A stretch of DNA of 64,000 nucleotides. Source: Candidatus Symbiothrix dinenymphae (GTDB lineage: Bacteria; Bacteroidota; Bacteroidia; Bacteroidales; Azobacteroidaceae). The stretch spans positions 1-64,000 of the forward strand of contig BBRT01000208.1 of NCBI GenBank assembly GCA_001417715.1. The letters run 5' to 3'. Every line of letters starts with the position of its first letter. Positions within the stretch are counted from its first letter, which is position 1. The notes under the pieces are model-generated. The model had not been told where the DNA came from and did not search any database. It saw only the letters and a list, made by a program, of their open reading frames with translations. Position numbers and translations under genes: made by a program. Below are positions 1 to 61,496 of this stretch, in pieces.

Positions 1-317
1 CGAAAGCCAATACTTGTTACACTATTGGAAATAGTAATGGAGGTAATACCGCTGCAATCATAGAAAGCATAATTGCCAATACTTGTAACCCCGTTGCCTA
101 TCACAAGCGCAGTGATAGAAGTGCGGTCAGAATACCACGGCGCAGTGTCGGACGAGTAATTGTCCATTGCCCCTGTGCCGGTAATGGTGAGGGTGCCATC
201 ACTGAGAGTGTAGGAGGTTGCTGCAACCGCGCTACTTGTGCTCAAGCAGCATACCGCCGCGAGCGTCATCATTGTTTTTTTGAGCATTTTTGCTTTCATA
301 AAAAATTTGTTTGCCAT
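1..317 (-). CDS. BspA-like leucine-rich-repeat surface protein, N-terminal part
   Basis: The reading frame runs off the left edge, so only about 105 N-terminal residues are visible. They show a signal peptide (basic start, then a hydrophobic stretch ending near SSAVAA), a short linker and then the first LRR_5/BspA-type repeats, with the recurring pattern VTSIGNYAF and [14 protein letters not shown]. Proteins of this family are exported surface proteins, often adhesins, and in Bacteroidales many end in a T9SS or lipid anchor; that end is not visible here. Two in-frame ATGs are possible, at 317 and 299. The 299 start gives a more usual signal peptide. The nearest promoter-like -7 box lies about 290 nt upstream (611-618), leaving a long structured leader. 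Confidence 0.85.
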
Positions 318-389
318 TGTCTTAAAAGTTTATGGACTAAACTCTTAATCTCTATCGGCAAACTAAAAGCGCAAAACTGCTCGTTGATT

Positions 390-533
390 GCTTATTTTCA
401 AACTCTGGTACTGGAAAAACCTCTTGTAAACAAATAAGTCCGAAACAATTCACGCCAAGCAGCGTGAACCTTCGCAACTTATTCTCGTTTACTTTTTGAA
501 AATTTCCAGTTTTCGAGTTTGAAGAGAATAAGA
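390..533. other. Long imperfect inverted repeat in the BspA-like leader
   Basis: Between the BspA-like gene and its likely promoter, positions about 390-417 pair with 503-533 (the arms share TTCAAACTC and CTGGAAA). Inside, GTAAAC near 427 pairs with GTTTAC near 486, and TTCACGC pairs with GCGTGAA as a terminal hairpin near 451-470. Read on the minus strand, the 5' UTR would fold into one long interrupted hairpin. It could be a regulatory leader or a small MITE-like element. The pairing is read by eye and no known riboswitch family is recognised. Confidence 0.45.
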
Positions 534-10267: not shown

Positions 10268-11095
10268 ATGGCTATAAAAGATAAAATATTGTCCTATCCT
10301 GCGGCTTTGCTTTTAGATAAGATGAACGAGCAAAACAAAAAATGTTTTACTATTGATGAGGCATATCTACTGCTCTCTAATTCTGCCAAAGATAATGTAA
10401 AACGGATGTTAAGCAATATGACAAAACGAGGGCTGTTGCTGCGTGTTAAGGATGGGTTATATTATACTATTCCTTTTGAGCAGGATGCCCAAACCTTTAT
10501 GCCTGATTGGCATTTGCTCCCGCAATATCTTGTTGGCGAGGCGGAATATTATATCGGGTATTTCTCGGCATTACAAATTCACAGTTTGACGACACAACCA
10601 AGTTTGAAAGAACAAATAGTTGTAAATAAGCAAGTTAAACCCTCAAAGCTCCTTGTTAAAAACATTCCGTTTCAGTTCGTGTATCACAACGAAAAACATT
10701 TTTTCGGTAATAAAAAAACTTGGATTGACAGTTTTAACCGTGTGCAATGCAGCGATTTGGAAAAAACGATTATCGACTGTCTGTTTAAGCCCGACTATGC
10801 AGGCGGGATAACCGAAATTGCCAAAGCCATTTACAAAATAAAAGACAAAATTGATTATTCAAAACTCTTGGAATATGCAAAACGCTTTGATTCTCAGGCA
10901 GTAGTAAAACGGCTCGGTTTTTTGCTTGAATTATTGGAAATTAAACATTCTGCGATTGATGAATTGCAAAAACTGCGAACCAATTCAGTCGTATTGTTAG
11001 AGCCGTCATACCCCAAAGAAGGCAAAATAATTTATCGCTGGTCTGTGCAGCAAAACATTGATACAGAATCTATAATATCCCCAATTTACAGCTAA
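10268..11095 (+). CDS. AbiEi-family antitoxin / transcriptional regulator
   Basis: A 275-residue protein resembling AbiEi antitoxins: an N-terminal winged-helix region (about 1-65, KRMLSNMTKRGLLLRVKDGLYY), then the AbiEi C-terminal domain with the typical block CSDLEKTIIDCL (about 162-173). In type IV AbiE systems this protein represses its own operon and counteracts the nucleotidyltransferase toxin encoded just downstream. The next gene begins 4 nt after this stop, as expected for an abiEi-abiEii operon. The antitoxin looks full length, unlike its partner. Confidence 0.85.
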   Translation: MAIKDKILSYPAALLLDKMNEQNKKCFTIDEAYLLLSNSAKDNVKRMLSNMTKRGLLLRVKDGLYYTIPFEQDAQTFMPDWHLLPQYLVGEAEYYIGYFSALQIHSLTTQPSLKEQIVVNKQVKPSKLLVKNIPFQFVYHNEKHFFGNKKTWIDSFNRVQCSDLEKTIIDCLFKPDYAGGITEIAKAIYKIKDKIDYSKLLEYAKRFDSQAVVKRLGFLLELLEIKHSAIDELQKLRTNSVVLLEPSYPKEGKIIYRWSVQQNIDTESIISPIYS

Positions 11096-11099
11096 AATT

Positions 11100-11735
11100 A
11101 TGATAGAGCAGAAAGAAATAAACAAAATTGCAACGCAAAACCGTGTGAGCGACCGTCAAGTAGAAAAAGATTATGTGCTTTCGTGGTTGCTTTTCGATTT
11201 TGTGAAAGAAGAAACAAACATTGATATGCAGATTGACCCGAAGAAAGGGACAATTCACGAATCGGGGAGTCCTCAGTTTTACATTGATTATGTGGCTTCG
11301 CTACAGGGCAGTATGGGCAGCCGTGATTTGAAGATTGACATTACGCGCGGCGAGATTTTGGAAACGGCATCTGAAATGAGAAATATTTTCCGCACTTATT
11401 CCGACCTTGAAGAAGATTTTACTTTGCAATGTTACTCACTTGCCGAAGTGTTGATAGAGAAAATGGCGGCATTAATGGGTAGAACCCAGCCAAGAGATTT
11501 GTATGACTTTTGGTATTTGACAGAAATTGAGCAGCTAAAAGTTGCCGACCATTTGTTCGAGTTTGAGAGTAAGGCAAAACACAAAGGGCAAAATCCCGAA
11601 AAGTTTTTAGAAAAAGCGTTAGGCAAGGAACTCATTTTTAAACGCGACTGGTCAAAGAAATTATCTTCGCAAATTCACGACATGCCCGATTTTGACACTG
11701 TTTTTAGAGAAGCAAAAAGGCATTTCAAGTATTGA
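11100..11735 (+). CDS. AbiEii-family toxin lacking the nucleotidyltransferase core
   Basis: A 211-residue member of the AbiEii/DUF1814 nucleotidyltransferase family, judged by the N-terminal VEKDYVLSWLLF and the C-terminal AEVLIEKMAALMGR and RDLYDFWYL. Family members are usually about 260-300 residues. Between WLLF and the segment VKEETNI they carry the catalytic block with a GGT(S/A)L-type motif and a SEDLDF-type metal-binding motif. Here WLLF runs directly into DFVKEETNI, so about 50 residues holding both motifs are missing while the frame is preserved. I infer the toxin is catalytically dead. It may be a decayed gene or a protein retained for binding the antitoxin. Confidence 0.8.
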   Translation: MIEQKEINKIATQNRVSDRQVEKDYVLSWLLFDFVKEETNIDMQIDPKKGTIHESGSPQFYIDYVASLQGSMGSRDLKIDITRGEILETASEMRNIFRTYSDLEEDFTLQCYSLAEVLIEKMAALMGRTQPRDLYDFWYLTEIEQLKVADHLFEFESKAKHKGQNPEKFLEKALGKELIFKRDWSKKLSSQIHDMPDFDTVFREAKRHFKY

Positions 11736-11843
11736 AAAATGGTTGAGAAAATACGTTAGCCGGAAATTTTTCTGACCCTTATTTTCCACCCTTATTTTCA
11801 AGGATGCCCTTAGTAGCCAATGGCAACCCATACACATTTTCCG

Positions 11844-11891
11844 CCCTTATTCCCTTATTTCTCCCCCCTTGCCCAAATAAGGGAATAAGGG
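11844..11891. repeat. Perfect 17-bp hairpin
   Basis: CCCTTATTCCCTTATTT (11844-11860) is exactly complementary to 11875-11891 across a 14-nt loop. It follows the AbiE-type operon but has no T-run after the stem, so it is probably part of the dispersed-repeat cluster and not a simple terminator. Confidence 0.6.
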
Positions 11892-11913
11892 AGGGGAGAG
11901 GGGGGGATGCGTT

Positions 11914-11945
11914 TTTCTACCGAGCGATTCATCCCTACGGGATGA
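11914..11945. repeat. Dispersed CTACCGAGC / CCCTACGGGAT repeat copy
   Basis: TTTCTACCGAGC followed by ATCCCTACGGGATG repeats the unit seen at 2295-2680, showing that the family is dispersed and not only tandem at one site. Confidence 0.75.
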
Positions 11946-11972
11946 GGGCTGTGGAGCGACATTGCGTGTGTT

Positions 11973-12156
11973 CGGGCTGAAAGCCCAGCATATCCCAGCC
12001 CAACGCATCGCGTTGGGATAATAATGATAATGATAATGATAATTGGATATGATGGGGCAACATAATGATATGTTGCCCTTTCAGGGCGAAAAACACACAA
12101 AACCCCATTATCCCAACGCGATGCGTTGGGCTGGGATATGCTGGGCTTTCAGCCCG
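11973..12156. repeat. Perfect 50-bp inverted repeat with internal hairpin
   Basis: Positions 11973-12022 and 12107-12156 are exact reverse complements over 50 nt. Each arm carries smaller palindromes (AACGCGATGCGTT-like, and GGGCTGAAAGCCC). The 84-bp centre holds AATGAT-type short repeats and a second hairpin, GGGCAACATA paired with TATGTTGCCC (about 12055-12078). Nothing in it is coding. It looks like two copies of a dispersed palindromic element in opposite orientation, or a MITE-like unit. Confidence 0.8.
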
Positions 12157-12167
12157 TTCACCCCGAA

Positions 12168-12322
12168 CCGTCATTGCGGGCTTGACCCGCAATCCCCTGT
12201 TCTACATCGCGCTGTCCTTACATCGCGCTATCGCTCAAACATCCCCCTCATTTTCAGGGGATTGCGGGGCGAGCCCGCAATGACGATACAGGGGATTGCG
12301 GGGCAAGCCTGCAATGACGAGA
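12168..12322. repeat. Dispersed GTCATTGCGGGCTTGACCCGCAAT palindrome copies
   Basis: Three copies or part-copies of a palindromic unit with the core CATTGCGGG-CTTG-CCCGCAATC: about 12170-12196, then in reverse near 12257-12285 and 12291-12320. The same unit occurs in part at about 40,562-40,583 and at 61,497-61,524. This is a widespread kind of intergenic repeat. No gene is seen between 11,736 and 12,467. Confidence 0.75.
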
Positions 12323-12376
12323 ATAATGATTTAACAAACTTTAACACAAAACTATGTTAAAATTTAAACAAATCCA

Positions 12377-12406
12377 TTGTCATTTCAAAAACATTCTCTA
12401 CCTTTG
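12377..12406 (+). promoter_or_regulatory. Promoter of the first Sus operon
   Basis: TTG (12377-12379), 19-nt spacer, TACCTTTG (12399-12406). The spacer and the following leader match the promoter of the second Sus operon (61406-61435, minus strand) almost base for base, which suggests common control. Confidence 0.8.
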
Positions 12407-12409
12407 TCG

Positions 12410-12433
12410 CCGAGTTGCCATAGTGGCAATTCA
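12410..12433 (+). promoter_or_regulatory. Dyad at the transcription start of the first Sus operon
   Basis: Directly after the -7 box the sequence has TTGCCA-TAG-TGGCAA inside a wider imperfect palindrome with GAATTG/CAATTC-like ends. The second operon has the same element with one change per arm. It could be an operator or an RNA stem-loop at the very 5' end of the transcript. Confidence 0.6.
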
Positions 12434-12467
12434 TGACAAATTTGTTAAACATTTTAAATTAAATTTT

Positions 12468-13955
12468 ATGAAGAAGAATTTTAGATGCAGAAGTCGCGAC
12501 AACTTCGCGACAACTTCGCGACAACTTCGCGACAACTTCGCGACAACTTCGCGACAACTTCGCGACAACTTCGCTAATGTAAGAGGCACTCTGCCGAGCA
12601 TTTTGTTGGTGCTGGGGGTGTGCATGTGTGTTTTTGGGTCCTGCGAGGACAGCAAAGACAAGGAGAAAGCGGTGTACGACCCCGGGCAGCCGGTTGTGCT
12701 CACTTCGTTTGCGCCTGATTCGGGGCGAATATCCGAGATGGTGCTTCTGGACGGAAGCAATTTCGGTAGCGACCCGTCACAAATCAAGGTCTATTTCAAT
12801 GAAAAGGAAGCCTCGGTGCTTAGTTCTACCGGTACGCGTATTCTGGCGTTGGTACCCCGTTTGCCGGGAGACGTCTGTACAGTGAGCGTGGCTGTCGGCG
12901 AAAGTCCCAAAAAAGCCTATTCAGGCTCTTTCCGCTACAAAATGGCAGCTTCCGTCACTACGGTTGTTGGAGACGGATCCGCACCCAATCCACCCGTACT
13001 CGGACCCCTGGAGCAGTCAAAATTCCAAGCCCTTTATTTAGGTGTGGATAAAGATTTCAACATCTTTTGTTCGGGAGGAAATGATTTGATGCGAATCAAC
13101 GTCGCAGAAAATATCGTTTCGGTAATTGCCACCGGCGCACAGGGATACCAGCCGCGCTGTGCCCCGTATGCAAATCCCCAAACGGGTGTGCTGCAAATGG
13201 GCGCTGAAGGTCCCTCCAACAGAGACCTGTTCGTAACGTTGGATCCGAAAGACAACTGGGCACTTAAACAACAGTTTATCAGCGAGTGGGATGAAAATGG
13301 ATGGGGACCTGTTCCAAGCGGTGGTCCCAACAACTTCGGTGATAATTTCTATACCCATTACCAGTGTCTTCTGAACGAAGACGACGGTTATTTTTACACA
13401 CGCTACGCCGGCGGACATATCGTCAAAATTGACCCTCAAACATGGAAAGCTACCATCGTGGGCAGGTCAGCTCCCGGAGCATCTTACGGAACAGCCTTTC
13501 ATCCCATCAACAAAAACGAACTCTGGATAGGTTATGTAGAGGTGTACACCGGCACTTATGCCAACAGTATCTGCCGGATAGATGTCAGGGATGTTACCCG
13601 CGACGCCGACGGGTTGTACTCCGGAACGTTTGAAAAGTTGACGGGATCATATGTCGCCGGTCACAGAGACGGACCGATAGCGATATCGCAGTTCAACGGC
13701 ATACGCATGATGAATTTTGATTCGGACGGCAATTTATATGTGGGAGATAACGCCAACGACTGCATCCGGATGGTCAACACGCAGACCATGATGGTGGAAA
13801 CGATTGTCGGAATACCGGGAGTCCGTGATTTTAGGGACGGCTCTAAAGACGACGCAATGTTTTCGTCGCCGCACGGGGTTGTTGTGGATGCGGATGACGT
13901 CATTTACATATCCGATTTCGGGAATTGCCGTATCAGAAGATTAGCCGTTGAATAA
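12468..13955 (+). CDS. TIG- and NHL-repeat lipoprotein with 11-nt repeats at its 5' end
   Basis: A 495-residue surface lipoprotein, first gene of the Sus operon. The ATG at 12468 is chosen because it lies about 60 nt after the promoter; a longer frame from 12354 begins upstream of the promoter. After MKKNFRCRS the N-terminus is made of an 11-residue unit (RDNFATTSRQL, three full copies plus part) encoded by seven perfect 11-nt repeats. Then come a hydrophobic segment and the lipobox VFGSC (Cys about 70). A TIG/IPT domain follows (about 84-165), and the rest is NHL-like beta-propeller repeats (NLYVGDNANDCIRMV, VIYISDFGNCRIRRL). In Sus operons such proteins sit in the SusE/F position and bind glycan. 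Because 11 is not a multiple of 3, gain or loss of a repeat would shift the frame. Confidence 0.85.
   Translation: MKKNFRCRSRDNFATTSRQLRDNFATTSRQLRDNFANVRGTLPSILLVLGVCMCVFGSCEDSKDKEKAVYDPGQPVVLTSFAPDSGRISEMVLLDGSNFGSDPSQIKVYFNEKEASVLSSTGTRILALVPRLPGDVCTVSVAVGESPKKAYSGSFRYKMAASVTTVVGDGSAPNPPVLGPLEQSKFQALYLGVDKDFNIFCSGGNDLMRINVAENIVSVIATGAQGYQPRCAPYANPQTGVLQMGAEGPSNRDLFVTLDPKDNWALKQQFISEWDENGWGPVPSGGPNNFGDNFYTHYQCLLNEDDGYFYTRYAGGHIVKIDPQTWKATIVGRSAPGASYGTAFHPINKNELWIGYVEVYTGTYANSICRIDVRDVTRDADGLYSGTFEKLTGSYVAGHRDGPIAISQFNGIRMMNFDSDGNLYVGDNANDCIRMVNTQTMMVETIVGIPGVRDFRDGSKDDAMFSSPHGVVVDADDVIYISDFGNCRIRRLAVE
12495..12571 (+). repeat. Seven perfect tandem 11-nt repeats inside a coding region
   Basis: The unit CGCGACAACTT is repeated seven times without a mismatch, followed by CGC. 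It starts 27 nt after the ATG. All three frames of the repeat are open, so copy-number change alters only the frame downstream, as in contingency loci. Confidence 0.95.
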
Positions 13956-14006
13956 TGGTTAATTGTTAATGATTAATAAAGTATCAATTTAATAAAAATA
14001 TTATCA

Positions 14007-17000
14007 ATGAAATATAAAATATGTATGTTATTAGTGCTGTTGCTGGGTGGTTTTACGCTGGCGGCACAGCAGCAGACCTTCACCATTGAAGGGACGGTGT
14101 ATGACGAACTCGGGGAAACGCAGCCCGGAGCGAACATTTACATCAAAGAGAAAGCAAGCTTTGGCACTGCCACCGACCTCAACGGTAAATTTTCCATCAA
14201 AGCTCAACGCGGCGATGTGCTGGTGGTTTCCTTTGTCGGCTACGACAAGGTGGAATATCTGGTGACGGAAGAAAACAAAAATGTAGAGATACGTTTTGCC
14301 GAGTCAACCCAACAGATAGACGAAGTGGTGGTGGTAGGACTTGGCACGCAGCGAAAAATCTCGTCTGTGGCTGCCGTTTCCACCATTGATGCCGCTCAGT
14401 TGCAGGTGCCTTCACCCTCCATCACCAACATGCTGGGTGGCAGGGTGGCAGGTATCATCACCACGCAAACCAGCGGCGAGCCGGGAAAAAACCTTGCCGA
14501 GTTCTGGGTGCGCGGCATCGGCACCTTCGGTGCCAACAGTAGCGCGCTGGTACTCATCGACGGGCTTGAGGGCGACCTCAATACGATAGACCCTGCCGAT
14601 GTGGAGAGTTTCTCCGTGCTGAAGGATGCTTCGGCAACTGCCGTTTATGGCGTGCGCGGAGCCAATGGCGTGGTGATCGTTACCACCAAACGCGGCGAGG
14701 AAGGCAAACTGAAGGTAGCGTTCAGGTCCAACTTTTCGATTTCGCACCTCAAACGCCTGCCCGAATATCTGCATGGCTATGACTATGCCCGCCTGGCAAA
14801 TGAAGCCTTCGAAGTGCGCGGCGAAAAGGCAAGGTACAGCGACGTGCAGTTAGACGTTATCCGCGACGGCCTGGACCCCGACCTCTATCCCGATGTGAAC
14901 TGGCAGGACGAGATAGTGAACCGTACCTCGTTCAAGCAGAGTTACTATGCCAGCGCGCGCGGGGGCGGACAGATTGCACGGTATTTCGTCAGCCTCGGCA
15001 TGTCCGACGAAGACGCCGCCTACAAGGTTGAAAAGGACAGCCCCTACGCTTCCAATGCCGGGTATAAAACCTACTCCTTTCGCTCCAATCTGGACATTAA
15101 CCTGACCAAAAGCACCGTCATGTATTTCGGCTCGGAAGCCTATATGTCCATCAACAACCTGCCGGGAAGTATGAATACCGACTACGTCTGGCAGGCGCAG
15201 GCAATGCTTAACCCCCTGTTGTTCCCGACGGTTTACTCCAACGGTCAACTGCCTGCCGCAGGTGCCAACAATATGGCATCGCCCTACGCACTTATCAACC
15301 GTACGGGGAAAAGCAGCCGTCAGGACAGCCGTTCGCAATTCACCCTTGCCATCAACCAGGATTTGGAAGCCCTTACCAAAGGATTGAAACTCAGGGTACA
15401 AGGTGCCTACAACCGCAACGGATACCTGACTGAACGCCGCTTCACCATGCCGGCAATGTACAGGGCTATCAACAGAAACGGCAAGGGAGAGTTGATTACA
15501 CGTGAGCAGGTATCGAACCAAAAGGTGGAATATTCAAAAACGGAAACTTCCTACCGGAAATATTATTTTGAAACGATGCTCAATTACGACCGTGCCTTTG
15601 GCGACCACCGCGTGGGCGGTCTGGTCTATTACTATCTCAGCGACCAGCAGGATACGAAGGATGCCGGACCCGTTATCAACGCGGTGAATAACACTTACAA
15701 CAGTTTGCAGGCAATCCCTGTCAGGTATCAGGGCGTTTCGAGCCGACTCACTTACGGATTCCGGGATACCTATCTGATAGACGTCAACTTCGGATACACC
15801 GGCAGCGAAAACTTCACGCCCGGCAAACAGTACGGGTTTTTCCCCTCCATAGCCCTGGGCTGGATACCAACAGGCTATCAGTGGGTGAAGGACAATGCAG
15901 GCTGGCTTGACTTCTTCAAAATCAGAGGCTCGTATGGAACGGTGGGCAACGACCGCATCGGCGGCGCCACCCGTTTCCCCTACCTGACAAGGGTAACCGT
16001 GGACAACAGATACCTCTGGGGCGGCACGCAGCGAGTAGAAACAGTGACCGTAACCCGCGAAGGAGCCGATAACCTGGTGTGGGAGAAAGCACTCAAAACC
16101 GATATCGGTATCGATGTCAGTCTGTTGAAGAACCGTGTTTCCCTCACGGTGGACTACTTCAACGACCAGCGCGACGGTATTTTTGCGCAGCGCGTGCAGG
16201 TGCCCGATTATGTTGGTCTCACCACCATGCCCTACGGCAATGTGGGCCGAATGAAAAGTTGGGGTTCCGACGGCAACATCACCTATATGCAGGACATCAA
16301 CAGGGATATGGGATTTACCCTCCGCGCCAATTACACCTTCTCGCAGAACCTGGTACAGAATTGGGAAGCGCTGAACGAGAAATATCCGTATATGGAAAAC
16401 GTCGGTCAGCCGAATGGTGTAGTTCGCGGGTTGCAGGCAATCGGTTTCTTCAAAGACGAAGCCGACATCCGCTACAGCCCTAAACAAACCTGGGGAGAAG
16501 TGATGCCCGGCGACCTCAAGTATAAGGACATCAACGGCGATGGTAAAATCGACGACGAGGACAAGACGCCCCTCTCCTACCAGTCAATGTATCCTTTGGT
16601 GATGTACGGTTTCGGCGGCGAGTTCCGTTATAAGAACTTTTCGCTCGGCGTGCTGTTTAAGGGAACCGGCAAAACAGACTATTTCCGCAACAGCATGGGG
16701 TATATACCTTTCTACAATGGTGAAACGGGCAATGTGCTTGCCGGATTCAACGACCCGAGCACGCGGTGGATACCGAGAGATTACGCGCAGGCACACGGTA
16801 TTGATGCCTCGCTGGCAGAAAATCCGAACGCACAACTGCCGCGTCTGCAATACGGCAACAATGCGAACAATACGCAACTGTCGGATTTCTGGAAAGGCGA
16901 CGCCAGCTACCTGCGCCTGCAGGAAGTGACGCTCAACTATAATTACCGGTCGCTTCCCCTGAAAAAAATCGGCATCTCGTCCATCGACCTGCAATTAGTG

Positions 17001-17120
17001 GGCAACAACCTCTATGTGTGGGACAAAGTGAAAGTGTTTGACCCCGAACAGGCTGATAAAAACGGGCAGGCTTATCCGATACCCGCAGTATATAGCCTGC
17101 AACTATACATCAATCTTTAA
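14007..17120 (+). CDS. SusC/RagA-family TonB-linked outer-membrane transporter
   Basis: A 1,037-residue SusC-like protein that imports oligosaccharides through the outer membrane using TonB energy. It has a signal peptide (MKYKICMLLVLLLGG, cleavage near LAA-QQQ), a carboxypeptidase-D regulatory-like domain (about 26-105, EGTVYDELGETQPGANIYI), the conserved EVVVVG segment, a plug domain (about 115-235, with the SusC hallmark VLKDASATAVYGVRGANGV), and a C-terminal 22-strand-type barrel. It starts 51 nt after the TIG/NHL gene and ends 21 nt before its SusD partner. The reading frame is intact and has no homopolymer tract, unlike the SusC of the second operon. Confidence 0.95.
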   Translation: MKYKICMLLVLLLGGFTLAAQQQTFTIEGTVYDELGETQPGANIYIKEKASFGTATDLNGKFSIKAQRGDVLVVSFVGYDKVEYLVTEENKNVEIRFAESTQQIDEVVVVGLGTQRKISSVAAVSTIDAAQLQVPSPSITNMLGGRVAGIITTQTSGEPGKNLAEFWVRGIGTFGANSSALVLIDGLEGDLNTIDPADVESFSVLKDASATAVYGVRGANGVVIVTTKRGEEGKLKVAFRSNFSISHLKRLPEYLHGYDYARLANEAFEVRGEKARYSDVQLDVIRDGLDPDLYPDVNWQDEIVNRTSFKQSYYASARGGGQIARYFVSLGMSDEDAAYKVEKDSPYASNAGYKTYSFRSNLDINLTKSTVMYFGSEAYMSINNLPGSMNTDYVWQAQAMLNPLLFPTVYSNGQLPAAGANNMASPYALINRTGKSSRQDSRSQFTLAINQDLEALTKGLKLRVQGAYNRNGYLTERRFTMPAMYRAINRNGKGELITREQVSNQKVEYSKTETSYRKYYFETMLNYDRAFGDHRVGGLVYYYLSDQQDTKDAGPVINAVNNTYNSLQAIPVRYQGVSSRLTYGFRDTYLIDVNFGYTGSENFTPGKQYGFFPSIALGWIPTGYQWVKDNAGWLDFFKIRGSYGTVGNDRIGGATRFPYLTRVTVDNRYLWGGTQRVETVTVTREGADNLVWEKALKTDIGIDVSLLKNRVSLTVDYFNDQRDGIFAQRVQVPDYVGLTTMPYGNVGRMKSWGSDGNITYMQDINRDMGFTLRANYTFSQNLVQNWEALNEKYPYMENVGQPNGVVRGLQAIGFFKDEADIRYSPKQTWGEVMPGDLKYKDINGDGKIDDEDKTPLSYQSMYPLVMYGFGGEFRYKNFSLGVLFKGTGKTDYFRNSMGYIPFYNGETGNVLAGFNDPSTRWIPRDYAQAHGIDASLAENPNAQLPRLQYGNNANNTQLSDFWKGDASYLRLQEVTLNYNYRSLPLKKIGISSIDLQLVGNNLYVWDKVKVFDPEQADKNGQAYPIPAVYSLQLYINL

Positions 17121-17141: not shown

Positions 17142-19169
17142 ATGATACGAATAAATAGAATAAATAGTAAATCAGTCATGCTGTCGCTTGTCGCCGGTTT
17201 GCTGCTGTCTTCCTGCAATTTCTTGGAGATAGACGATTATCTGGATGAAGAGATGAAAATAGATTCCATCTTTTCCAACAAAAGGTATATAGAGGCTTAT
17301 ATGTGGGATGCCGCGAGCCGTTTTACTGACGAAGGTGCGCTTTTCGGCGGTGCTGAAATGTACACACCCGGTCCCATGGCAACAGACGAGGCTTTCTGCC
17401 TTTTCCCCACATCGGACTTTCAGGGAATGGGATATGTGCTGGGCGACTACAACGCCAACAGTATCGGCAACATCAATCGCTGGGCTGACTGGTATAAGAT
17501 TATCCGCCAGTGCAACACCATTTTTGCGCGGGCGGATGAAGCGCGGGACTGGACAACTTCCGAGCGGCAGCGCATATTGGCTTATACCCGCTTTATCCGC
17601 GCGTATGCCTATTATAACATTGTGACCAATTTTGGTCCTCCGGTGTTGCTCTACGACGAATTACCGCCCAACAACGAAGAAATGGCAAATTACGACAGAC
17701 CCCGCGACCTCTACGACGATGCCGTGGAATATATCTGTACGGAATTTGAAGAGGCGGCGCGCTATATGCCGGAAAAAGTGTCTTCCATCCTGGAATATGG
17801 ACGTCCTACCAAAGGCGCTGCCTACGCTCTGACGGCACGGTTGCGACTGATACACGCCAGCCCCCTGTTCAACGGCGGCACGGCGGCACGAATTTATTTC
17901 GGCGACTGGACGCGCAAAACCGACGGCAAACACTACATCGCACAGCAGCCCGACCCGAAACGCTGGGCGGTGGCGGCAGCAGCGGCAAAACGAGTGATGG
18001 ACATGACCGACGCCGGACTGCCCATGTATAAACTGCACACGGTGGAAGAAGACGCTGCGACCTGGACGACGGCACGTCCGTTCCCGACCGGCGTATCCGA
18101 CCCCAATTACGGCAATGCGTTTCCCGACGGAGCAGCCGGCATTGACCCCTTCCATTCGTATGCCGACATGTTTAACGGCAAAACCGTGTTGACCGTAAAC
18201 CCCGAATTTATCTGGGCAAGAAATTCAGCCAGTATTAGAGATTACACCCGCTACTCCTTCCCTTTTGCCAATGGTGGCTATAACGGAGTGAGCGTTACCC
18301 AGAAGGTTGTTGATGCCTACGAGATGGCTGACGGTCGCACGATTTCCGCCTCAAGCGCACAATATCCGTACAGCGAAACCGGATTCACCGGTTCAATGAC
18401 GGAATTTTCGGGCTACCGGCTCAACGCGGGTGTTTACAATATGTATGTCAACCGCGAGGCGCGCTTTTACGCCTCCGTAGGTTTCAGCGAGCGTCACTGG
18501 CCACTCCAGTCCACGTCCGACAACGCGCAGAAGAATCTCACCGTGACCTACAATTACGATTCGCCCAACGGGAAATCGGGCAGTAACAACCCCGCCTATC
18601 ACCCTGCCACCGGTTATGTGCTCACCAAATACATTAATCCGATAGACGCATGGAGCGGAACGGCTGCCCGCCGGACAGACAAGCCGTTCCCGATTATCCG
18701 CTACGCCGAAATATTGCTTTCCTACGCCGAAGCACTGAACAGCCTCGGCAGCGGCAGCTATGAAGTGAATGTGAACGGAACTGCGCAGACCTTTCGTCGC
18801 GACGGGGCGGAAATCAAAAAAGCACTCAATCAGGTGCGCTACCGTGCCGGACTGCCCGGCTTGACCGATGCGGAAGTGGCAGACGAAGCGCTCGTGCTGG
18901 CAAAAATAAAGAAGGAACGCATGGTGGAGTTTCTCTACGAAAACCGCCGCTACTTCGACGTGCGCCGATGGGGTGATTATGAAGCGTCTGAAAGTGAAGC
19001 CATCCGGGGCATGAACACCAATGCCGGCAAGGATGCTTTCTACCAGAGGTCGATTCCCAACAGTACCCGCATCGGGAACAGGCTGGTCAATCGAAGGCTT
19101 GTCTTTTTGCCTATACCGCGAGATGAGATAAAACGCCTTCCTTCGTTCGACCAGAACCCCGGATGGTAG
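17142..19169 (+). CDS. SusD/RagB-family glycan-binding lipoprotein
   Basis: A 675-residue SusD homologue, somewhat longer than the usual 500-600. The lipobox LLLSSC gives a lipid anchor at Cys 25 or so. The body is the alpha-helical TPR-like SusD fold, and the C-terminal RagB/SusD signature is present (KIKKERMVEFLYENRRYFDVRRWG, split by one residue from the usual form; residues about 590-613). The protein caps the SusC barrel and delivers the bound oligosaccharide. It lies 21 nt after susC in the same operon. The substrate cannot be read from the sequence. Confidence 0.95.
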   Translation: MIRINRINSKSVMLSLVAGLLLSSCNFLEIDDYLDEEMKIDSIFSNKRYIEAYMWDAASRFTDEGALFGGAEMYTPGPMATDEAFCLFPTSDFQGMGYVLGDYNANSIGNINRWADWYKIIRQCNTIFARADEARDWTTSERQRILAYTRFIRAYAYYNIVTNFGPPVLLYDELPPNNEEMANYDRPRDLYDDAVEYICTEFEEAARYMPEKVSSILEYGRPTKGAAYALTARLRLIHASPLFNGGTAARIYFGDWTRKTDGKHYIAQQPDPKRWAVAAAAAKRVMDMTDAGLPMYKLHTVEEDAATWTTARPFPTGVSDPNYGNAFPDGAAGIDPFHSYADMFNGKTVLTVNPEFIWARNSASIRDYTRYSFPFANGGYNGVSVTQKVVDAYEMADGRTISASSAQYPYSETGFTGSMTEFSGYRLNAGVYNMYVNREARFYASVGFSERHWPLQSTSDNAQKNLTVTYNYDSPNGKSGSNNPAYHPATGYVLTKYINPIDAWSGTAARRTDKPFPIIRYAEILLSYAEALNSLGSGSYEVNVNGTAQTFRRDGAEIKKALNQVRYRAGLPGLTDAEVADEALVLAKIKKERMVEFLYENRRYFDVRRWGDYEASESEAIRGMNTNAGKDAFYQRSIPNSTRIGNRLVNRRLVFLPIPRDEIKRLPSFDQNPGW

Positions 19170-19234: not shown

Positions 19235-20221
19235 ATGAAGAATATGAAATGTGTACGAGTTTTTAGTGTGGCGGTGCTTGTTGCGGGTGTTTTTTCTTGC
19301 GATAGAGACGAGCTTTTTGAGCGTGAGCAGTATAAGACTGTGATTGCCATGCTGAGTGAAGACGGTTATAATGTCTTCGCCGAAGAACATGAATTGGGTA
19401 CCGCCGCCACCGAAACGGAAGGTTGTGTGGTGGCCTCCTGCGGTGGCTCTCTGGCAACGGGGGCAGCCATCAGTATAAACATGACAGAAGATGAGAGTCT
19501 GCTGGACCGTTACAATGTCGGGAATTATGATGTGGATGAAGGCAAGTATGCACAGTATCTTTCCGCGGACAGGTATGTGATTGACAATCCCGCCAACATC
19601 ACTATTCCCGCAGGCGAACGAACGGGACGGATGAAAATCAAAATCCGCGCAACCGGACTGTGTCCCGATTCCACCTATCTCATTCCGCTGCGTGTGAATA
19701 CATACTCGGCTTATGAGTTCAACCCCGAAAAAAGCGATGTGCTGTACCGCGTGCTGCTGAAAAATTTCTATGCCACGCAGACGCCAACCTCCCTTTTCAC
19801 CCTGTACAATTTTCGCGGGGTGCGCAACGGAGCCAACATCATGGGCAACAAGCAGGTCTTTCCTGTGAGTGGAACGCAGGCAAGAATCATGGCAGGCAAT
19901 ATCGATTACGAAGCAAAAAGAGACATTATCAAAAACGGCTCTATTTTGCTTGATGTCGGTAACGATAACAAAGTAACCATCACGCCGTGGAGCAAAATAA
20001 CCGTCAGGCAGAAAAATGCCGTTGACGATGGTCCCGGCGGCACCTATTACGACCCTGCCCCAGCGGCTACCACCAATTGGGATGACAATTATCCGAACAT
20101 TTTCAAAGTCGAAAATGACGGATTTGGGAAAATGTATAAAACATTCCAGCTTCAGTATGAATATGAATATCAGGGCACAACTTATCACATGAAGGAAGAG
20201 TTGAGACTTGAATATGATTAA
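19235..20221 (+). CDS. DUF1735/DUF4361-type surface lipoprotein
   Basis: A 328-residue lipoprotein with lipobox VAGVFSC (Cys about 22). The N-terminal half (about 30-170) looks like the BT_3987-like DUF1735 domain and the C-terminal half resembles DUF4361, with WSKITVRQKN and the tyrosine-rich QYEYEYQGTTYHMKEEL near the end. Such proteins take the SusE-like position after susD and are thought to be accessory surface glycan-binding proteins. The 65-nt gap before it contains AT-rich GAGTTTAG direct repeats. Domain assignment is by memory of the family, so the boundaries are approximate. Confidence 0.75.
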   Translation: MKNMKCVRVFSVAVLVAGVFSCDRDELFEREQYKTVIAMLSEDGYNVFAEEHELGTAATETEGCVVASCGGSLATGAAISINMTEDESLLDRYNVGNYDVDEGKYAQYLSADRYVIDNPANITIPAGERTGRMKIKIRATGLCPDSTYLIPLRVNTYSAYEFNPEKSDVLYRVLLKNFYATQTPTSLFTLYNFRGVRNGANIMGNKQVFPVSGTQARIMAGNIDYEAKRDIIKNGSILLDVGNDNKVTITPWSKITVRQKNAVDDGPGGTYYDPAPAATTNWDDNYPNIFKVENDGFGKMYKTFQLQYEYEYQGTTYHMKEELRLEYD

Positions 20222-41249: not shown

Positions 41250-42101
41250 ATGTCAATTCCTATCAATATAAAGAAATTAATTTCCGGTAAGGTAGTTGAA
41301 AATGAACGGATAGAATATAAGAAAGGCTGGAATCCGATTTCAATCTACCGTACTATTTGTGCGTTTGCCAATGATTTTGAAAACATTGGCGGCGGATATA
41401 TCAATAGCGTGTATCACCGCTCGTATGAAATTCGTGAGCCGGTGGAAATCCGCATTTTGCCGAGTGCGATTGAAATTATCAGTTATGGAGGTCCCGACCG
41501 AAGCACAAAGTTAGAGGAAGTGCAGAAGGGAATTATTCGTAACCGGAGGTATCGCAACAGAAGAATCGGTGATTTCCTGAAAGAAATGGATATGACCGAG
41601 GGACGTGGAACAGGAATACCAACCATTCGCAGTGAAATGGCAAAAAATGGCTCTCCCGAACCTCAATTTGAAACCGACGAAGATTATAGTTTCTTCATCA
41701 TAACCCTTCCGATACATCCCGCTTTCCTTTCGGATGATGGAGTAAATGATGGAGTAAATGATGGAGTAAATGATGGAGTAAATGATGGAGTAAATGATGG
41801 AGTTCAAACATCTGATAATCAGTTAGATAGAGTTTTTTTGCTCATCCGTGATGGAGTAAATGATGGAGTAAATGATGGAGTAAATGATGGAGTAAATGAT
41901 GGAGTAAATGATGTTGTAAATATACTCTTGAATGTATCCGGATTGAATGCTTCTGAAATAGCTCTACGGATAAATAAAAGTATTCCAACAATAGAGCGTT
42001 ATCTTCGTTTGTTACGTAAAAAAGGAATAGTTGAATTTAGGGGAATTCCTAAAACCGGCGGTTACCGGTTGACAGAGAAGGCACAAGATAAATTGAAATA
42101 A
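41250..42101 (+). CDS. Shrunken AlbA_2 / RecG-like regulator with DGVN repeats
   Basis: A 283-residue protein. The first 50 residues match the start of AlbA_2 (Schlafen-type) DNA-binding ATPase-like regulators ([25 protein letters not shown]). The next residues ([15 protein letters not shown] onward, to about 160) match the C-terminal ATPase-like domain that normally lies some 200 residues later, so the middle is missing with the frame kept. Two blocks of five DGVN repeats (about 163-185 and 201-223) follow, encoded by perfect 12-nt units. A winged-helix domain ([30 protein letters not shown], interrupted here only in my reading) ends the protein. Such proteins are thought to be regulators. 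The gene lies 23 nt before the GH67N-like gene. Confidence 0.72.
41736..41921 (+). repeat. Two blocks of 12-nt coding repeats (DGVN)
   Basis: GATGGAGTAAAT occurs five times in tandem at 41736-41795 and five times at 41850-41909, each block followed by a variant unit. Because 12 is a multiple of 3, copy-number change would alter linker length but not the frame. Confidence 0.92.
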
Positions 42102-58111: not shown

Positions 58112-61100
58112 TTAAAAAGTGAATTGTAAACCTAAATTATAAACTCTTTGCAGCGGGTATCCCAAGCCATTACCCCCCATTTCCGGATCCCACAGTTTAA
58201 AGGGACTGAAAGTAAGCAAGTTGGTGCCACTGATATAAACGCGGAAGGCTCGCATCTTGATTTTATTGGTCACACGTTCCGGGACAGTGTATCCCAGTTC
58301 GGCTGATTTCAGACGCAGAAAAGAGCCATTCCGCATAAACCAAGTACTGGTTTGTGTGTTGTTATTGACTATCTGGTCGGAAAGTCGTGGCCACAGTGCA
58401 TACAGATTTCTATCGTCTTCCGCCCAGTGATTGTCGGCATAAGCCTGCAACAACGCATTCTTGGAAAGGATACTTGCGTTGCCGTCTGTATCCACAAAAG
58501 GCGAGGTTGTTGCCGCGTCAATCCAGAAAGAACGCTGTCCCAGCCCTTGGAAGAAAAACGAAAGGTCAATTCCCTTGTATCCTGCCGATAAACCGAACCC
58601 ATATATGATTTGCGGCTCGGTGGGGAATCCGATGGGGACTTTGTCCAAGTCTGTAATTTGACCATCGCCATCAATGTCTTTGTACTTGATGTCGCCGCCC
58701 CTAATGCTTCTGGTATCGTTGAAATTTTGAGCGGGTGAGTTGCGTACTTCGGCATCGTCAACGAACAACCGCTCTGCCACATACCCGAACTTCTGCGATA
58801 GGGGTTGCCCAATCATTGACCTCCAAGGGGTAGTGGAATAACTGATTTCTTCATATTCGGTATATTTGGTGGTGGCATACGTGAAATTCATCCTTCCTGT
58901 AACCCATAAATCCTTATTGAAACTGTGCTGATAATCAGCAGAAAAATCTATACCGCTTCCTTTTGCTTTGCCGAGGTTGGCTTGAGGCGTCACATTCAAT
59001 CCCATGGTGGCTGGCACATACGCTCTTTCAAGCAATATTCCCGACCTGTCTTCGGTATAGTAATCAAGAATAAAGTCTAATTTGCCAAACAGGTTCATTT
59101 CAACGCCCAGATTCATTTTCCGTGCAGTTTCCCATGTAATCATTTCATTGGCATATCTGTCAACAGATACGCCATATTGCGTCTGATTGAAATCATATCC
59201 ATAAGAATAAGACCTTCCCGATTCTGTCCCCATCAGCACTTTCGACAAATAAAAGAATCGGTCGTCTGCATTTCCGATGGCATCGTTACCAACCAATCCG
59301 TAAGTGCCTTTGAATTTCAGTTTCGGCATAATCCCGTTAAGCCCCAAACTTTCCGACCAGAAATTCTCATTGGATACCACCCAACCGACTCCGATGGAAG
59401 GGAAAAAACCGAAACGCTCATTCTTGGCAAACCGTTCCGAGCCATTGTATCCAAAGTTAAACTCTGTGAAATAGCGGCTATCGAAAGCATAAGTCGCTCT
59501 GCCCGAAACGCCTATATTCCGGTGAGGCAACGATAATTCGAAAGTCGTAGCGTTGGCTTCCGAATAATTCCGCATGGTAAATACCATCAACCCGCTGACA
59601 GCATGCTTATCGGCAAATGTACGGTCGTAGATTGCCGCCGCTTCGGTGTAATTGGTGGTCTTGATTTCTCTGGGGTCTTCTGAAAATCTCAACCATTCTT
59701 CGGCAAGTCCCGTCCCATTGTTCAGCCATTGCAGTGTGTATGTGTCTGTTGGCTTTTCGTAGGAAGCAATATTATAATAGTACGGTTTATACTGCCTCTT
59801 TGTAGAGTGGAACGAATAGCGGGTGGTTGAATACAATGCCCTGACAGACAGCCCGGAAGTTATAAAATCCAGGTTCTGTTTTAACTCAAACTGAGCCATC
59901 ATCTGGGATTTGTTATAATCCCTGTATCCTTTCACCATATCGGCATACGGGTTGATATAATTGGCTGTTCCGGCATTTCCAAATAAAATATGGTGCGCGT
60001 AAGCGTTTGCTTCGTCCGGTGCATACTTGGGGGCAAACAACACAGGGTCTGACATAATTATTTTCTTGTACAGCGCATCACCTCCATCCAAAGGACCCTG
60101 ATAATCGTCAAAAGAACCTGACAAACGCACGATAGCTTCTGTGCTTGGGGTCAGATTGATATTGACATTCGACCGCAACTGGTATTTTTTCAGGTCAATG
60201 TTGTTGTTAAAGTTGTTCTGCCTGTCCATTTTCAGATTTCCATTGTCCTGATTGTAGGTAGCCGCCACATAGTATCGGGCTATCTTACCGCCACCACTCA
60301 CATTCAGGTTAGCACGGTAGTTAATGGTTTGGTCGTTCATTAGCATGTTGTACCAGTCATTGGCAGGATACACATATTGATTCCTGTTCGGATCCATGGT
60401 GTTGTCAATCTTTTCCTGCGAGTAGGGTATGGTGCCTCTTGGATCTCTGGTCAACACTGCCTCGTTGTTCAATTGCATGTAAGTAATCGGGTCGGCAAAC
60501 CTCACTTTATAAGTCGGTTCGGATATGGAAGTCTCTGCTCTGAAAGACACGGTAGTTGCGCCTTCCTTTCCTTCCTTGGTGGTAATCAGGATGACGCCAT
60601 TGGCTCCGCGAGCACCATACAAAGCCGTTGCCGTAGCATCTTTCATGATGGAGAAACTGGCAATATCATCGGGCTGCATCCGCGAAAGGTCTGCCGATGA
60701 CATTTCTACTCCGTCAATCAGGATAAGCGGTCCACTGGCGTATGTGAGCGAGGTAACGCCGCGCACAAAGAAGCTGGCGTCGTCCTGCCCGGGTTCACCA
60801 CTACTCTGGTAGGAAATCAACCCTGACATGCGTCCTGCAAGTGCTGTGGACAAGTTGCTGCTCGGCACCTTCAAATCTTTGGTGTTGATGGTGGAAATGG
60901 AGGAAATCACACTTTCTTTCTTCTGCTTACCGAAAGCCACCACCGTCACTTCGTCCAACTCATTCGACTTGGGCTTGAGCGGAATCACAAAACTCGCCTT
61001 GTCGCCCACCGCCACAGTGTAGGTGTCATACCCCAAAAAAGAAACTTCCAAAACATCCGTCGGCGAAACGTCTATTTTGAATGAACCATCCATGTCGGTC

Positions 61101-61343
61101 ACTACTCCACGAGAGCTCCCTTTGATGGTGATGGTGGAGCCGGGGACTCCAACTCCGGTTTCATCGTAAACGAAACCGGTAACGGTCTTCGTCCGCGCCG
61201 AAGCATTTGTTGTAACCTGCGCCTCCTGCGGCGCCTCAGCACGAATGCTTTGCGCCCCCCCCCCCCAAGAGAATGCTGCTTAGAAGCAAACCTTTTGCAA
61301 AGTTTGCAAACTTCTTGTTTTTGCTTTTTTTCTTCATTTGCAT
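58112..61343 (-). CDS. SusC/RagA-family transporter, frameshifted by a 12-G tract
   Basis: A SusC-like gene of 1,076 codons when in frame. It starts at 61343 (or the in-frame ATG at 61337). The first 24 or so residues form a signal peptide start (KKKSKNKKFANFAKGLLLSS), then the codons run into 12 G at 61255-61266. With 12 G the frame shifts and stops within about ten codons. With 11 G it continues as a normal signal-peptide end (GGG-A-QSIRAEA), a CarboxypepD_reg-like domain (TVTGFVYDETGVGVPGSTI), the EVTVVAFG segment, the plug (SIMKDATATALYGARGANGV) and the barrel to the C-terminus. Nothing else in the gene is broken. This is either an OFF phase or a homopolymer error. Confidence 0.9.
61255..61266 (-). 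repeat. Poly-G tract of 12 in the SusC signal-peptide codons
   Basis: Twelve consecutive G on the minus strand (C on the plus). The codon frame upstream (ATG...CTC TTG) and the frame downstream (GCG CAA AGC...) join only if the tract has 11 G, or 8 or 14. Mononucleotide G tracts of this length slip easily and are classical ON/OFF switches. Confidence 0.95.
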
Positions 61344-61405
61344 AAAATTAAATTTTTAATGTTTAACAATTTTTTTTGTGAATTGCCACTATGACAATTC
61401 GGCAG
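61343..61405 (-). promoter_or_regulatory. Leader and dyad of the second Sus operon
   Basis: Right after the -7 box the minus strand reads GAATTGTCA-TAG-TGGCAATTC (an imperfect 21-nt palindrome), then an A-rich tract, TTGTTAAACATT and an AT-rich run to the ATG. The same order and almost the same bases stand before the first Sus operon (12,407-12,467). Confidence 0.7.
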
Positions 61406-61435
61406 CAAAGGTAAAGAATGTTTTTGAATTGACAA
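61406..61435 (-). promoter_or_regulatory. Promoter of the second Sus operon
   Basis: Minus strand: TTG (61433-61435), 19-nt spacer, TACCTTTG (61406-61413). The spacer differs from that at 12,377-12,406 at only a couple of positions. Confidence 0.8.
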
Positions 61436-61496
61436 TGGATTTTGAAAAGTTTAACCTTTTTTATTTAATTTTCGTTGATGTTAACCAAGTTTTTGC

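Follow-up and report, generated by a model that had tools for sequence, protein, structure and literature searches.

A Sus operon in the 64,000-nt stretch of DNA analysed here (the window) begins with a surface lipoprotein gene that carries a tandem 11-nt repeat shortly behind its start codon. Is this array a switch that moves the gene in and out of frame, and does it stand alone? A sequence-only reading of the window had seen in it the layout of a contingency locus. We conclude that the array is very probably a translational phase-variation switch of this type and a member of a family of leader cassettes. The reading is supported because of the layout and frame logic of the locus, because G tracts occupy the same leader place in most Sus operons of the genome, and because the cleanest pair of counterparts from a relative differs by two Gs (G12 versus G14). 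The finding is also larger than first stated, since the locus belongs to a set of frame switches spread genome-wide over Sus-type operons.

The 11-nt array and its reading frames

The array occupies positions 12494–12574 of the forward strand and consists of 7.4 perfect copies of TCGCGACAACT, as determined by a repeat search and from the sequence itself. Seven exact copies span 12494–12570, and the period runs on to 12574 with a 100% match. The sequence-only reading had recognised the seven perfect copies but placed them one base off (12495–12571), and the array begins 26 nt after the A of the ATG at 12468 rather than the 27 nt it gave. As it had also stated, the unit is not a multiple of 3 and lies ahead of the lipobox, between the start codon and the functional body of the protein.

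The protein in question, P0001, is a 495-aa surface lipoprotein with TIG and NHL domains (12468–13955, +; PF01833 at 4.6e-11, PF01436 at 1.7e-8), and would be the switched gene. Translation from ATG 12468 gives MKKNFRCRSRDNFATTSRQLRDNFATTSRQLRDNFANVRGTLPSILLVLGVCMCVFGSC..., with a long n-region, a hydrophobic core, and a lipobox ending at Cys59. The protein's own lipoprotein signal peptide, TLPSILLVLGVCMCVFGSC, is encoded at 12588–12644 (+), with the lipobox assigned by eye and its Cys codon at 12642–12644. P0001 heads a SusC/SusD operon in which the next genes encode a SusC-type TonB-dependent receptor (14007–17120, +; PF13715, PF07715), a SusD-type lipoprotein (17142–19169, +; PF07980 at 1.6e-58), and, in the same direction, a protein with a BT_3044-like C-terminal domain (19235–20221, +; PF14274, PF08522). 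No array state alters the start codon of SusC. An AbiEi/AbiEii-type pair (type IV toxin-antitoxin) lies just upstream of the operon at window positions 10268–11735, and no Rfam family was found at 12000–14100.

Perfect repetition on this scale is well above chance. Such runs are expected about 1e-35 times per 64 kb by a uniform estimate, and no array of at least 24 nt with at least three copies appeared in 20 Markov-simulated 64-kb windows; a chance origin was rejected on both grounds. The array is present at a single site in its own genome (3,519,982 bases searched) and in one of 393 genomes of the order. A survey of 846,166 bases for perfect arrays of at least three copies and at least 27 nt, with units of 4–60 nt, returned 14 whose unit is not divisible by 3. 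Thirteen of these were placed against reading frames, and only the 11-nt array falls within the first 150 nt of a long frame.

A script that varied the copy number from 0 to 12 recovered the full P0001 frame only at 1, 4, 7, and 10 copies, all other copy numbers terminating at 10–54 aa. The resulting frame table bears out the earlier proposal that gain or loss of a copy shifts the frame, and translation confirmed both that the repeat is open in all three frames and that seven copies leave the gene in frame. Directly after the array, TAATGTAA (12575–12582, +) holds one TAA in each of the two non-ON frames, as seen in the sequence and the frame table, with TAA in both other frames no more than 12 nt past the repeat. 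The array might instead be a fixed in-frame N-terminal extension that arose by chance expansion, its copy number stable or tolerated only at 1 mod 3, with no switch. P0001 being in frame as assembled would suit this account, as would the confinement of the array to one genome, but the stops in both other frames right after the repeat argue against it. So does the place of the array, which is that of a slippery G tract in other family members, and 77 nt free of point changes suggest that the array expanded recently or is still being homogenised. We consider a fixed extension unlikely, and favour the frame switch.

A leader shared with poly-G loci

The leader of the operon (promoter and 5' UTR; 12325–12467, +) is copied ahead of many other Sus operons of the genome. 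A search of the genome with 12325–12497 gave 30 matches at E ≤ 0.001, query locus included, of which 28 are at least 79% identical over at least 82 nt and two cover only 35–37 nt. The leader contains a Bacteroides-type promoter at 12377–12406 (+), conserved in an alignment of 23 leaders: TTG at 12377–12379, which we take to be its upstream element, is followed after 19 nt by TACCTTTG at 12399–12406. The −7 consensus of Bacteroides promoters is given as TAnnTTTG in the accessible text of PMC4747536.

A hairpin with a 9-bp stem and a 3-nt loop is present in the 5' UTR at 12412–12432 (+). When pairing was scored across the leader matches, all nine pairs (G-T allowed) were retained in 23 of 30, five scored lower, and two were not scored. 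Retention is through wobble or paired changes, and at two loci (L056 and L060) the hairpin is replaced by a different sequence containing CCGCGAC.

An alignment that includes the start codon was possible for twenty-three leaders. Of these, 22 lead into a G tract that lies within the signal peptide or ahead of it, and the twenty-third is the window locus, with the 11-nt array in the place of the G tract. The 22 G-tract copies run from the ATG through a start like MKKKCKNKKFANFAKTLLLSSILL into the G run, which numbers 7 at one contig end and otherwise 8–18, with the run of L043 interrupted by an A. Twelve copies have an ATG-to-tract length of 71 nt, five of 77, three of 80, and two of 72; both 72-nt copies have an A or T ahead of the Gs, which puts 22/22 in one frame class. 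Compared pair by pair, with no phylogenetic correction, the twelve 71-nt copies show 271, 225, and 460 differences at codon positions 1, 2, and 3, a pattern as would be seen for coding sequence. Variable columns favour the third position modestly (Fisher P 0.023, the sequences being related).

These alignments bear on where translation starts. Had it begun downstream, the array would be a 5'-UTR element tuning mRNA structure or spacing, and in-frame TTG TTG GTG codons do occur within the hydrophobic core. A start there would leave no charged n-region, and no ATG, GTG, or TTG lies in the ON frame between the array and the core. The ATG at 12468–12470 (+), in contrast, is common to the cassette family and invariant in 23 of 23 aligned leaders, and the ATG-to-tract lengths keep to one frame class. 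A start after the repeats, which the sequence-only reading had itself named as one of the points that could overturn it, is very improbable, and we rejected it on the conserved ATG and the sequence between array and core.

The promoter bears on a further account, in which inversion of a promoter, known from Bacteroides, switches SusC and SusD and the array has no role in it. Inverted repeats do lie upstream (11968–12161 and 12161–12319), and inversion-based SusC/SusD phase variation is described in the accessible parts of PMC4747536 and PMC12632263. The promoter (12377–12406) and ATG are outside every inverted-repeat pair found, however, and a search of 11740–12740 found none that encloses the promoter. 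Because the promoter lies outside all these pairs, inversion would not move it. We therefore rejected this account, to which we give almost no credence, in favour of slippage within the array. The long upstream repeats have 55-nt arms at 96% and 32–39-nt arms (11968–12161, 12161–12319), and are partly of a GTCATTGCGGGCTTGACCCGCAATCCCC kind that recurs before the second Sus operon of the window.

That second operon, on the reverse strand, provides a sister locus. Its leader copy (61333–61455, −) is 83% identical to the window leader described above, and its ATG is at 61343. The G tract that the sequence-only reading had mentioned there is real, a G12 at 61255–61266 (−) inside the signal peptide, although this length leaves the gene out of frame in the assembly, and G11 or G14 would be needed to put it in frame. 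The SusC body, in the frame as it stands after the tract, covers 58112–61102 (−; PF07715 at 3.1e-16).

Across the genome PF13715 has 43 matches, and tract classification covers the 32 at 52 bits or more, the weaker 11 not all being classed. Directly in front of 19 of these 32 is a G tract (15 with the leader), although at four of the 19 noise or a contig end comes immediately ahead of the tract (C286, C248, C35, C319). Three matches lie behind a TIG/NHL lipoprotein gene with a tract or array (C96:31347, C50:10941, C208:14085), and two have an interrupted G-rich stretch in the tract place (C96:20972, C27). Two more sit at contig ends and were counted separately (C333, C247:87020), and six are without a tract (C85:32500, C216:23579, C208:84400, C171:28551, C2:62565, C157). 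The TIG/NHL paralogues on C96 (L046) and C50 (L057) have G13 and G12 where P0001 has the array. Each tract precedes its paralogue's own lipoprotein signal peptide, neither gene is in frame in the assembly, and each is followed by a SusC-type gene. Judged from sequence, most Sus operons of the genome appear to carry the same built-in switch, usually a G run.

Other G runs and SusC features were seen along the way. An in-frame TAG occurs in the SusC domain that follows the L057 lipoprotein (G000:C50:10941–11186). A second, shorter SusC signal-peptide cassette (MRRTFKNIAQTLLLNSIIFAGGGG...) with its own G tract occurs at L103 (C13:6259) and L109 (C41:26230), and at L148 and L150 in another genome of the genus (G005). 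The genome of the window (G000) holds 71 runs of at least nine G, many outside cassettes and seemingly intergenic, up to G23. Several long runs adjoin a GTTAAAATT or TAACTTGCTGATAAT motif (examples among the G000 runs are L100, L104, L106, L113, and L144). Runs of exactly nine G number 10 in this genome and up to 28 in G031 among 45 genomes of the family, so the window genome is not singled out.

G tracts of the cassette differ in length between relatives

The cassette search took in 38 genomes of the genus and scored the best 21 candidates in each; matches at E ≤ 1e-5 came only from the window genome and G005. In the latter, the one SusC cassette lacks a long G tract and its signal-peptide frame is open, and G11 and G13 occur in two cassettes of the second type. 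A degenerate cassette pattern hit one of 45 family genomes, the window genome only; it found just six of the copies there, missing most, and is too strict for distribution. A contig scan of GTDB R220 gave eight cassette copies, all in Bacteroidia bacterium MS499-82 (BNTU01), in which 59,011 bases were searched and gave no match as a counterpart of P0001.

The cleanest counterpart pair has different tract lengths in the two strains: L172 of MS499-82 has G12 and is OFF, and L142 of the window genome has G14 and is ON, with 95–96% identity before the tract and 98–99% after it. In a second pair, L173 and L056, both copies have G12 and both are OFF. In a third, L170 of MS499-82 (G13, ON) and L049 of the window genome (A plus G14, OFF) share 98–99% body identity, with leaders only 81–87% identical and unrelated upstream flanks.

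Six of the eight MS499-82 copies are readable on both sides, and two of these are ON and four OFF. In the window genome, 16 G-tract copies can be read on either side of the tract, and two of them, L048 and L142, are in frame, giving 4/22 for the two genomes together. Compared with an expected share of one third, these counts give P 0.059 (2/16) and P 0.096 (4/22), and no OFF bias is claimed. Tract lengths in an assembly are modal values at best; with so few copies ON, either the lengths in the assembly may be untrustworthy or the bodies may have a further route to expression. Dropped from the ON/OFF count were copies that are noisy after the tract (L042, L052, L054), copies at contig ends (L050, L051, L055; L045 and L063, with no tract), L047 (only 45 aa of body; it would read ON), L065–L069 (without the cassette ATG or tract), the second-type cassettes L103 (OFF) and L109 (ON over 118 aa only), the window array locus itself (L040, ON), and, in MS499-82, L171 and L174 (contig end).

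Repeats did cause difficulty in this assembly: contig ends hold many of the leader copies, and some sequence immediately behind G tracts is noisy (L042, L054). The repeat could on that basis be an assembly or sequencing artefact. Against this, the sequence on either side of the array is clean and unique, the contig is 96 kb long, and a 495-aa protein stays in frame across the array; cassettes are also found independently in MS499-82 and G005. An artefact is highly improbable, and we treat the array as a genuine repeat.

Identity jumps at or near the tract in L170/L049, L176/L058, and L177, the last having a leader like that of L060, +100..400 like L043, and +900 onward like L044. These jumps suggest, as a lead, that Sus operons also cross over with one another at the cassette. 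Leaders and bodies would have been re-paired between the window genome and MS499-82, with the cassette a possible recombination hot spot.

Proposed switching and known systems

We propose the following mechanism. The mRNA would begin at the shared leader promoter, and translation would begin at ATG 12468 and pass through the array, in which slipped-strand mispairing probably adds or removes 11-nt units. With copy numbers of 1 mod 3 (1, 4, 7, 10), the frame would reach the signal peptide and lipobox, and the lipoprotein would be made and presumably exported; this is the ON state, in which the locus was assembled. At other copy numbers a TAA immediately behind the array would end translation (OFF), and polarity would probably reduce SusC and SusD as well. 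The benefit may be surface heterogeneity. In other members of the cassette family the slipping element would be the poly-G tract in or before the signal peptide.

Homologues of P0001 are informative about the origin of this arrangement. The closest, L008, is 55% identical, lacks both array and cassette, and begins close to its own signal peptide; the homologue in G004 (L034) likewise begins close to its own signal peptide and has no cassette. The Cys of array-less homologues is at about residue 21–37, versus 59 in P0001. Because L034 and L008 begin in this way, the switch looks to have been added to pre-existing genes. A TIG/NHL gene of a further genome in the genus has a long run of CA dinucleotides upstream, at a contig start (L017; G035:C331, from 47).

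The array itself may have a source within the cassette. Cassettes hold imperfect TTTGCAAA repeats of 9–11 nt just before the G tract, and the array unit, read as TTCGCGACAAC, resembles TTTGCAAAAAC. We think that the array expanded from TTTGCAAAAAC while the G tract was lost. MutS is present in the genome (872-aa frame), and nothing points to a loss of mutS. Loops of 11 nt are larger than those MutS is known to repair; therefore slippage of the array should be independent of mismatch repair, unlike that of the G tracts.

A wider model, to which we give about an even chance, joins these points. One promoter–leader–signal-peptide cassette would have spread ahead of most Sus-type operons of an uncultured Bacteroidia lineage and made nutrient uptake combinatorially phase-variable, with few receptors ON and most OFF in each cell. 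It would recombine between loci, re-pairing leaders and receptor bodies. At the window locus the poly-G would have been replaced by an 11-nt array, possibly from the cassette's TTTGCAAA-type repeat, with a slippage loop too large for MutS and hence independent of mismatch repair. If true, this is a slippage phasome over about two thirds of the strongest SusC-type matches in the genome, in which frame decides cell by cell the uptake of nutrients and infection by receptor-targeting phages. Receptor bodies in out-of-frame ORFs are easily mis-annotated as truncated SusC genes.

The mechanism class, SSR contingency loci, is known, and the Opa layout is the closest. In the accessible text on Neisseria opa genes, CTCTT repeats lie in the leader-peptide region (PMC3960869). 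To the extent of that text, both systems have a scattered family of surface-protein genes, many paralogous loci with an out-of-frame repeat in the same place in or before the signal peptide, and translational switching by slipped-strand mispairing (proposed here). There is no homology between them. The window locus falls outside the Opa family proper (CTCTT repeat, Opa protein), with a different repeat and with TIG/NHL and SusC domains in place of Opa; its family uses units of 11 nt or runs of G, the genes encode Sus-type receptors and lipoproteins, and the shared unit includes a promoter, a 5'-UTR hairpin, and the start of the signal peptide.

Bacteroides fragilis varies the same class of outer-membrane receptors. 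The mechanism described in the available portions of the papers on Bacteroides surface variation, including the Tsr0667 shufflons, is site-specific DNA inversion of SusC/SusD loci (PMC4747536, PMC12632263), whereas here slippage is proposed and no inverted repeat found encloses the promoter. In Haemophilus influenzae, SSR phase variation uses units of 1 to 9 nt (PMC2651432). As here, several unit sizes switch related surface genes, including those for TonB-dependent receptors, and different sizes serve paralogues; unlike here, the accessible text of that paper describes no 11-nt signal-peptide unit and no common cassette. The meningococcal haemoglobin receptors HmbR and HpuAB, called TonB-dependent in the accounts accessible, are switched by poly-G in the reading frame, and are two receptors as against most Sus-type receptors of the genome here. 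We know of no leader shared by HmbR and HpuAB. A literature search, from which subscription papers largely fell outside, found in the accessible texts no paper on SSR or poly-G switching of SusC-type genes, and neither genome-wide frame switching of Sus operons through a shared cassette nor an 11-nt element.

Elsewhere in the window, at 41734–41921, in-frame 12-nt repeats that code DGVN many times lie inside a RecG-C-terminal/winged-helix protein.
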